Origin: Thermoproteota archaeon
Lineage (GTDB): Archaea > Thermoproteota > Thermoprotei_A > EX4484-217-1 > JAPDJV01
NCBI GenBank assembly: GCA_029258925.1
Contig: JAPDJV010000010.1
Span: 1-32,125, forward strand
Length of the DNA stretch: 32,125 bases
Reading direction: 5' to 3'
In this document: in pieces, positions 30,022-32,125 of the stretch
Layout of the letters: each line of letters begins with the position of its first letter
How positions within the stretch are numbered: the stretch's first letter is position 1
Made by a program: the position numbers and the translations under genes
Notes under the pieces: model-generated
The model's input: only the letters and a program-made list of their open reading frames with translations
The model's database searches: none
What the model was told of the DNA's origin: nothing

Positions 30022-30269
30022 GTTCCATGTTTTTACATACCATCCAATTTCTCCAACTATACGTTATTTAATAGTTACCTAGCTTTTAAATGTGGTAAGA
30101 TAACAGTTTTGATGCAATAAACTCTTAGACAATATCCTTTGTCAGGCCAATATTCTTCACAAACCCCGATGCTTGTTGCTACAATAGTCAAATAGTATCT
30201 ATGCGTGTGTGGAGAATTGCTACTGACTACAATATTGTGTCTCTAGGTCTTATTAAAGAAAATTTTATA

Positions 30270-30291
30270 TTTTTCTGAAATTTCAGAAAAA
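30270..30291. promoter_or_regulatory. 22-bp perfect palindrome at the radical-SAM promoter
   Basis: Each half reads TTTTTCTGAAA towards the centre at 30280/30281; all 11 positions pair. It directly follows a TATA element (AATTTTATAT, 30261-30270) and would cover the transcription start. It ends 16 bases before the TTG start. Position and symmetry fit an operator for a dimeric regulator that blocks transcription. The GbsR/MarR-like protein encoded at the end of this operon is the obvious candidate. Confidence 0.6.
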
Positions 30292-30307
30292 AGAAAGGTG
30301 TTAGGGT

Positions 30308-31876
30308 TTGCAGGGGTACAGAGTGGTTTTAACAGCCGATAGGAGTATGATGAGCAATTATGGTGGAGGCCTCTTCTTCGGCTTCATTTCAACAGGACCA
30401 GTAAAAGGGTTCATACCGTTAACGATATTAATGAAGTTTGTCTTCAAGCCTGTACCGGTTGGGCCTAGAGGAGAAGCACTGCTGGCGCCGAATGGTCTTA
30501 GGAGAATCGAATCTGCATTAATTGAGAGCGGTGTTGTCGGCGAGGAAGAAATCATCGTTACTCCACCAGAAAAACTGGAGAAAGCCATTGGGAGAAGCAC
30601 TAGGATTATAGGCATACATTCACATGACCACCTTGGTAAGGGACCTGCTTCAACAGCTTTCTCAGGTCCAACGGGAATAGTGCACGAGGAACCTATTTCG
30701 GCATGGGGCTTCAAAACCCTCGTAACAAGCCCGATAATACAGGAGTCTAGGAGGAGGGGGGCGATCGTAGTAGCTGGAGGCCCCGGAGCATGGCAGTTCA
30801 CATATGAGGACATGACTAGGCTGGGAGTGGACATCGTATTGTATGGTGAGGGAGAGAAAGCTGTGCCAAGAATATTCTCGAAAATATTAAACGGCGAAGA
30901 CGTGGAGTTACCGCAAATAATCCATGTCAACCCAACAGAGTACCCTAAAGCCGAGGAAATACCTGTTTTAAGAGGAGGCACTATAGGTGGAATAGTTGAG
31001 GTTTCAAGGGGTTGTGGGAGAGGTTGTAGTTTCTGCAGGCCAACCCTAGTCCCTCTTAGACATAGACCCCTAGAACACATACTCAGAGACATAGAGGTTA
31101 ACGTGAAGTGTGGGCAGAGGAGCATATGCCTACATGCAGAGGACATATTCAGGTATGGCAGCAGCCCTCTTGAAGTAAAACACAAGAAAGTTGTAGAACT
31201 ATTTGAGAAAGCCTCTAAGGTTCCAGGAGCAGTCATTTCCAGCTTCAGCCATGCAAATCTAGCATCCATAGCCGCATATCCTAGAACAGTTAGAGCCATA
31301 TCAGAAATTTTAGGAGCAGACGAGAAGAACTGGGTTGGATATCAGACGGGTATAGAGACAGGTAGTCATCGGCTAATAAAAATGCACATGGAGTACAAGC
31401 CTTACCCCTTCAAGCCCGAGGAGTGGCAGGATGTAGTTGAACAAGCTTTTGCAATAAGCGTGGACAACGGGCTTGTCCCAGCCGCAACACTAATAGTTAA
31501 CCTGCCCGGGGAAAGAGAGGAAGATGTTTTGAAGACTATAGCACTTGTCGAGAAGCTCAGACCATACAAGAGCCTAATAGTCCCCCTACTATACGTGCCC
31601 ATGAATCCAGCGCAGAAGATGATGAGGTTCATAGAAGATGCCGAGTGGTATCATTGGGAGCTCTACATGTCTGTTTGGGAGCACAACATGAAGTGGCTAC
31701 CGGTGACAGCAGAAGAATACGTCAAGAATACTAGTCCAGGAGTGAAGATCTTCGTGAAATCCCTCATCAAGTTATTGAAGAGAGTTGCAGATAAGAGAGT
31801 TAAATCATTTATAAAGAGTAACTTGGAGAAGAAGCTTGAGGAGAGATCAAGAAAAATATTGCTAAAAGCAAAATAG
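30308..31876 (+). CDS. B12-binding-type radical SAM protein
   Basis: 522 residues. The N-terminal ~210 residues have the Rossmann-like look of a B12-binding domain (IIGIHSHDHLGKGPAS, AIVVAGGPGAWQFT, VDIVLYGEGEKAVPRI). The radical SAM domain starts with EVSRGCGRGCSFCRP, giving C-x3-C-x2-C for the 4Fe-4S cluster, followed by ICLHAEDIFRYG, VGYQTGIETGSHRLIK and LIVNLPGEREEDVLKTI. The C-terminal ~100 residues are helical and basic. The substrate is unknown; relatives methylate or rearrange unreactive carbons. The N-domain lacks an obvious DxHxxG B12 motif, so cobalamin binding is not assured. TTG start with AAAGGTG upstream. Followed after 15 bases by a regulator gene. Confidence 0.9.
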   Translation: MQGYRVVLTADRSMMSNYGGGLFFGFISTGPVKGFIPLTILMKFVFKPVPVGPRGEALLAPNGLRRIESALIESGVVGEEEIIVTPPEKLEKAIGRSTRIIGIHSHDHLGKGPASTAFSGPTGIVHEEPISAWGFKTLVTSPIIQESRRRGAIVVAGGPGAWQFTYEDMTRLGVDIVLYGEGEKAVPRIFSKILNGEDVELPQIIHVNPTEYPKAEEIPVLRGGTIGGIVEVSRGCGRGCSFCRPTLVPLRHRPLEHILRDIEVNVKCGQRSICLHAEDIFRYGSSPLEVKHKKVVELFEKASKVPGAVISSFSHANLASIAAYPRTVRAISEILGADEKNWVGYQTGIETGSHRLIKMHMEYKPYPFKPEEWQDVVEQAFAISVDNGLVPAATLIVNLPGEREEDVLKTIALVEKLRPYKSLIVPLLYVPMNPAQKMMRFIEDAEWYHWELYMSVWEHNMKWLPVTAEEYVKNTSPGVKIFVKSLIKLLKRVADKRVKSFIKSNLEKKLEERSRKILLKAK

Positions 31877-31891
31877 CCTCAGGTGCTGGAA

Positions 31892-32125
31892 ATGCCTATA
31901 GAGTTCGGCAGTGTAGAACTAGAGTTCATATCTAAGATGGCAAAGCTGTCGTATAAGTGGGGCTTAGGGGAAGCAGTTGGCAAAATCCTAGGAGTATTAT
32001 TGCTCAGCGAAGAACCTTTAACCCAAAGAGACCTCGCCGAAATAACCGGTTACAGTGTGGGTGTTGTAAGCAGTAGTCTAACGATACTTGAGAGACTCGG
32101 ACTAGTGGTATACGAGAAGATTAAG
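31892..32125 (+). CDS. GbsR/MarR-like winged-helix regulator, 3' end cut off
   Basis: The first 78 codons are present and open to the window end. The sequence reads FISKMAKLSYKWGLGEAVGKILGVLLLSEEPLTQRDLAEI, then TGYSVGVVSSSLTILERLGLV. That is a helix, a winged-helix helix-turn-helix and the beginning of the wing, the arrangement of the GbsR family (COG1510). ATG start with AGGTG 6 bases upstream. It is cotranscribed with the radical-SAM gene and probably controls that operon through the palindrome at 30270-30291. Confidence 0.85.
   Translation, partial: MPIEFGSVELEFISKMAKLSYKWGLGEAVGKILGVLLLSEEPLTQRDLAEITGYSVGVVSSSLTILERLGLVVYEKIK

Follow-up and report, generated by a model that had tools for sequence, protein, structure and literature searches.

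What is the role of a long palindrome that lies against the TATA box of an archaeal radical-SAM gene, when the next gene in the operon encodes a winged-helix protein? We examined this question in a 32,125-nucleotide stretch of a Thermoproteota genome (contig JAPDJV010000010.1, hereafter the window), for which an initial annotation had proposed a self-regulated unit. Our analysis makes it likely that this is an autoregulated operon, in which the winged-helix regulator binds the palindrome and represses both the enzyme and itself, and that, with an enzyme of the GDGT ring synthase (Grs) family as its product, it serves as a tetraether-lipid switch. The features of the locus and of related loci are collected in Table 1.

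Table 1 Coordinates of the operon, its predicted control elements and related loci.
Feature	Position	Strand	Remarks
TATA-like element TTTTATAT	30263-30270	+	Read from the sequence; A-rich BRE-like bases just 5′
22-bp perfect palindrome	30270-30291	.	Proposed operator of the downstream regulator
16-bp core TTCTGAAATTTCAGAA	30273-30288	.	Fits the cross-family consensus TTCNGAANNTTCNGAA
Possible Shine-Dalgarno AGGTG	30296-30300	+	7 bp 5′ of the TTG start; read from the sequence
Radical-SAM enzyme	30308-31876	+	522 aa, TTG start
GbsR/MarR-type winged-helix regulator	31883-32419 (window-equivalent)	+	GTG start; 178 aa; the window holds 31883-32125, the first 81 codons
Small nucleotidyltransferase gene (NTP_transf_2)	32921-33277 (window-equivalent; L002 12922-13278)		3′ of the operon
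PadR-linked Grs loci	L106, L107, L108, L109, L110, L111, L122, L126, L129, L203		

The palindrome TTTTTCTGAAATTTCAGAAAAA is composed of two 11-bp arms, TTTTTCTGAAA and TTTCAGAAAAA, with a spacer of 0 bp and 100% complementarity, exactly as initially annotated; no other perfect palindrome in the window is longer than 18 bp. Palindromes of this length or longer arise in simulated sequence of intergenic composition at ~1e-6 per base, and shuffled 80-bp upstream regions equal its score with p ~0.007. Reading the upstream sequence against the archaeal TATA/BRE consensus places the TATA-like element directly before the palindrome, with a one-base overlap, which bears out the adjacency described at the outset. 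The 3′ end of the palindrome is 16 bp from the TTG start of the radical-SAM ORF, for which the AGGTG motif could provide the ribosome site. Given the usual archaeal spacing from the TATA box, transcription is expected to start near 30291-30293, and the palindrome would therefore sit between the TATA box and the start.

These features also bear on three other readings of the palindrome: a terminator, a leader hairpin and a chance product of AT-rich sequence. Its A+T-rich composition, its flanking T and A runs and an RNA fold slightly more stable than that of shuffled sequences are what such readings would predict; however, the fold is no better than chance (z-score -1.2), on which ground the RNA hairpin was rejected, the palindrome precedes the expected start site, and the chance frequency is the very low one given above. 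Two-sided changes in orthologs, described below, moreover keep dimer symmetry at the same spacing. We consider these readings scarcely credible and treat the palindrome as a predicted operator.

The radical-SAM and regulator genes are on the same strand, with a 6-bp gap between the stop of the first and the start of the second. The span originally assigned to the unit, 30261-32125, correctly locates the operon, but its end at 32125 splits the regulator gene. Pfam HTH_5 and MarR_2 both match the regulator above cut-off, identifying a winged helix-turn-helix domain in agreement with the earlier description. A phmmer search of the PDB with the window regulator returned a sole sequence match, MJ223 (1KU9, E 4.2e-8), and a model of a 61%-identical protein from locus L206 (pLDDT 81) shows two long helices after the winged helix, and 1KU9 is again its best PDB match in Foldseek (E 2.4e-8, TM 0.66/0.73). 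Since 1KU9 comes first both by sequence and by the fold of the L206 model, the label "GbsR-like" given by the initial annotation is justified. MJ223 is a GbsR-type MarR protein whose winged helix and long C-terminal helices are shared with the window regulator. The GbsR protein of Bacillus responds to choline; the window differs from GbsR-type systems in that the genes linked to the regulator encode predicted lipid radical-SAM enzymes. An ArsR-kind metal sensor was also considered and set aside, as the corresponding NCBIfam matches are far under cut-off. Beyond the operon, an apparently disrupted partner frame lies 5′ of the NTP_transf_2 gene, and the two are possibly an MNT/HEPN-type pair.

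The enzyme had been described as a B12-type radical-SAM protein of unknown product. The radical-SAM part of this description holds (Pfam Radical_SAM above cut-off) and the match to a B12-binding domain is weak, whereas the enzyme need not be left without a predicted product, as it can be assigned to the Grs family. It carries the CxxxCxxC motif of that family as CGRGCSFC at residues 236-243; its NCBIfam relatives score far below cut-off only, and 96 of the 98 related genomes searched encode a homolog. In genome G025, which we take to be Sulfolobus acidocaldarius DSM 639, it aligns over its full length with two genes: one at 1.35 Mb (297 bits, 33% identity over 526 residues), a GrsA candidate assigned by gene position and paralog identity, and one at 0.20 Mb (243 bits). 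The two candidates are 32% identical to each other, close to the literature figure of 31% for GrsA and GrsB. A maximum-likelihood tree places the enzyme as sister of the whole GrsA clade, on a long deep branch and across the midpoint root from GrsB, a root that is unsure because long branches meet there. As the enzyme falls within neither the GrsA nor the GrsB clade and forms a separate deep branch beside the former, we refer to it as "Grs family" and not as "GrsA". Orthologs with 47-60% identity occur in other families of the phylum. A TIGR04013 search of the window genome gave ten matches, and no other protein of that genome resembles the enzyme at E <= 1e-8, making it the only close Grs homolog there. 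An AlphaFold model of the enzyme from a two-row alignment reached a pLDDT of 44 and was left unused.

Judged by its sequence, then, the enzyme is a Grs-family radical-SAM protein and would most likely form cyclopentane rings in tetraether lipids (GDGT). The GDGT ring synthases GrsA and GrsB of S. acidocaldarius are Saci_1585 and Saci_0240 (PMC8473941, PMC10465181). They are similar to the enzyme in length and layout, have the CxxxCxxC motif and align with it from end to end, and the enzyme is sister to the clade of GrsA; it differs from them in its modest identity, in its own deep branch and in having a product that is predicted. We found no GbsR-type regulator beside the S. acidocaldarius Grs genes.

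The proposal of a self-regulated unit can be judged by whether orthologous radical-SAM genes that keep the regulator also keep the palindrome, and both other regulator-linked Grs genes that we found do. The closest ortholog is in Thermoprotei archaeon B20_G17 (G343), where the enzyme is 60% identical, the gene order is enzyme then regulator as in the window, and TTCTAAATTTTTAGAA lies directly 3′ of the TATA box, in the same place. In G152, the regulator precedes the enzyme and TTCTGAATTTTTAGAA is found 3′ of the TATA box. Related sites accompany other predicted lipid genes: Thermoproteales archaeon AUK141 (G340), whose regulator is 57% identical to that of the window, has TTTTTCCGAA-AA-TTCGGAAAAA before a radical-SAM/SPASM gene that is followed by the regulator, and G424 has the same SPASM-regulator pair on a contig that ends before the promoter. 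The SPASM gene of G343 is likewise preceded by a site (L172), first met by a pattern scan and counted accordingly, with a 16-bp core identical to that of the window. The Grs gene of G293 has TTCGGAATTTTCCGAA upstream and lacks a linked regulator, a regulator homolog being encoded elsewhere in that genome. Across the orthologs, core positions 4 and 13 covary (T:A, C:G, G:C), with dimer symmetry and spacing retained; such paired changes are as expected of a site read by a symmetric dimer. A profile search of genome contigs with the regulator alignment returned only five loci, all in genomes already included, and no further regulator orthologs were found in the classes of G152 and G398. The self-regulated unit thus survives comparison with its orthologs and is supported by it, binding and autoregulation being its predicted parts.

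The position of the site relative to the TATA box is not uniform. It is upstream in G340, at the G343 SPASM gene and in G293, and downstream of the TATA-like element in the window, at the G343 Grs gene, in G152 and in several of the GrsA operons described below. Archaeal activators usually bind upstream of the TATA box, and the first group of promoters would suit a regulator that activates the operon through the palindrome, or that acts both ways according to where the site lies; in the second group, to which the window belongs, a bound protein would hinder polymerase, and we therefore think activation or dual action unlikely. Repression remains our preferred reading for the window, and, because activation is as plausible where the site is upstream, the sign may differ between promoters.

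To place the site in a wider context, we turned to an operon of the form wHTH-X-GrsA (GrsA third), found both in other families of the class and in G001, G002 and G003, which belong to the same order as the window. Among the proteins of those genomes, the wHTH protein of this operon is the one most closely related to the regulator of the window, as profile comparison agrees. When 98 relatives were searched with the regulator, Grs genes adjoined most of the 20 best hits. The core TTCNGAANNTTCNGAA is matched at 10/12 or better before 10 of 18 wHTH-X-GrsA operons and in 3.7% of control upstream regions, a comparison in which related genomes are non-independent and the controls include some true sites; the remaining eight operons have no site of that quality. 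Among 521 distinct upstream windows, 12 match the core at 11/12 or better, and all of these are at Grs, SPASM, regulator or wHTH genes (one is a divergent neighbour that uses the intergenic region of the G152 regulator), whereas 60 scrambled palindromes of the same letters average 0.1 such matches and never exceed 2. In 13 whole genomes we counted 11 exact sites against 7 for a mirrored control. Of the 11, five fall within coding sequence and six between genes, each of the six in front of such a lipid operon. Over the DNA-binding part, the Desulfurococcales-like wHTH regulators are only ~30-43% identical to that of the window, so the common site could be partly convergent.

Within the window genome, the palindrome is found once in the 1,747,272-bp assembly even when 3 mismatches are allowed; a wide regulon there was rejected, since the core too is present only once, and the region 5′ of the SPASM gene of this genome lacks it. 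The scan of genome and relatives suggested in the initial annotation thus finds a single copy at home and related sites before the lipid genes of relatives, and the view of site and regulator as one operon unit is retained with the amendment that the site is not private to this operon: its core recurs before wHTH-X-GrsA and probable GMGT-synthase genes. The gene X between wHTH and GrsA is itself conserved, with a product of ~100-140 aa (L005 1103-1480, L007 1147-1497 and equivalents); a Pfam search with the L007 version (as L100 3548-3898) gave no match. In Desulfurococcales-like genomes, a methionyl-tRNA synthetase gene often follows 3′ of GrsA on the same strand (L005, L007, L011 and others).

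The SPASM protein of G340 and G343, whose gene has the site upstream, consists of a helical N-terminus, a radical-SAM domain and a SPASM domain. It has a full-length, 54%-identical homolog in G038, which we take to be Ignisphaera aggregans, and none in G025. The GMGT synthase Gms has this same succession of helical N-terminus, radical-SAM and SPASM, and has been reported in I. aggregans and as absent from S. acidocaldarius (PMC11186832). We accordingly liken the SPASM genes of G340, G343 and G424 to Gms by layout and distribution, and regard their product as a probable GMGT synthase. In G398 (L203 1018-4089), a Grs gene is directly followed on one strand by a GMGT-synthase-like SPASM gene, with a divergent PadR gene. 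Paralogs of the regulator (L146, L147, L148, L149, L151) lie beside or opposite genes for a UbiA prenyltransferase and a GT4 glycosyltransferase, and at most of these loci a palindrome overlies the TATA box (ATTTTTATATTTT-TCG-AAAATATAAAAAT at L149, for example); these features suggest a further regulon, for lipids or glycolipids. Taken together, the homology and distribution of the SPASM protein, the G398 gene pair and the UbiA and glycosyltransferase neighbours point to membrane lipids as the field of this regulator family.

This context is relevant to a further alternative, namely that the enzyme belongs to the Grs superfamily and makes something else, for example a lipid modified in another way, such as by methylation, or a compound that is not a lipid; the regulatory logic would be unchanged. 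The long branch outside the GrsA clade, the 33% identity to the GrsA candidate and the inclusion of methyltransferases among related B12/radical-SAM families give this alternative some weight. Nevertheless, close Grs homologs are present in nearly all genomes of the class and the enzyme is the sole one in its own, the orthologs' regulator adjoins, and their site precedes, a probable GMGT synthase, and in G398 Grs and SPASM genes stand in direct succession; we consider a different product a real but lesser possibility and continue with ring formation as the preferred assignment.

Not every Grs gene is accompanied by a candidate regulator. A search for three wHTH types within two genes of 86 Grs genes found one linked to 29 of them and none at the other 57, as raw counts, so linked-regulator control is common and not universal. 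Ten Grs genes from other families have a PadR-type wHTH gene (PF03551 where tested) immediately adjoining, mostly divergent, and some of these loci have inverted repeats of their own near the promoter, e.g., AAATATTTTG-N5-CAAAATATTT in L111. The presence of PadR-type regulators beside other Grs genes indicates that linked wHTH control seems to have arisen more than once. This variation in wHTH family between Grs loci, together with the G293 site that persists without a linked regulator, would be compatible with a protein other than the co-operonic regulator binding the palindrome. Against this, the sites cluster at loci with the regulator or a relative of it, G293 has its regulator homolog elsewhere in the genome, and none of the PadR-linked Grs genes has an 11/12 core match, which leaves another binder very improbable. 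Footprinting across species lends indirect support to the prediction that the regulator, as a dimer, recognizes this operator.

In the mechanism that we propose, a dimer of the GbsR/MarR-type regulator would occupy the palindrome between the TATA box and the expected start, most likely blocking the entry of RNA polymerase and so repressing enzyme and regulator alike. A signal, which may be a hydrophobic or lipid-related ligand, redox state or temperature, would release the regulator, and enzyme and regulator would then be made together; the enzyme would most likely form cyclopentane rings in membrane tetraether lipids. A related regulator-site pair would control GrsA operons and the probable GMGT synthase in other Thermoproteota, and the recurrence of the pair at both kinds of gene argues for a switch dedicated to the tailoring of tetraether lipids. 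The layout is like that of archaeal autoregulated enzyme-repressor operons, in which a palindromic operator lies by the TATA box and the regulator is encoded in the operon, and differs from them in the kind of enzyme, a predicted tetraether-lipid radical-SAM protein, and in the operator TTCNGAANNTTCNGAA. Autoregulated regulator-enzyme operons and GbsR-type proteins are already known kinds; in the open-access papers searched, we found no description of a regulated tetraether-lipid radical-SAM operon or of this operator, nor any described regulator of grs genes.

Archaeal GDGT lipids carry differing numbers of rings according to temperature and acidity, and the ring count serves geologists as a palaeothermometer for the oceans. 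The enzymes that form the rings are known, and transcript levels of grsB respond to acid and cold in Sulfolobales (PMC10465181). A broader and more tentative proposal, which we put forward as conceivable rather than probable, is that the GbsR/MarR-type regulator and TTCNGAANNTTCNGAA are an ancient pair that, in many Thermoproteota, acts as a dedicated switch for the GMGT cross-link as well as for ring formation, sensing the state of membrane lipids or a precursor and setting ring number with temperature or acidity. The window and its relatives supply a candidate regulator, a predicted binding site and a likely regulon for ring enzymes, which makes the question of ring control directly testable, for example in cultured Desulfurococcales-type relatives with wHTH-X-GrsA. 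This heat-loving archaeon joins a probable ring-forming lipid enzyme, a regulator and its predicted operator in one unit, and a similar site lies at lipid genes of distant archaea; its recurrence points to a hitherto undescribed control of the rings in archaeal membranes.
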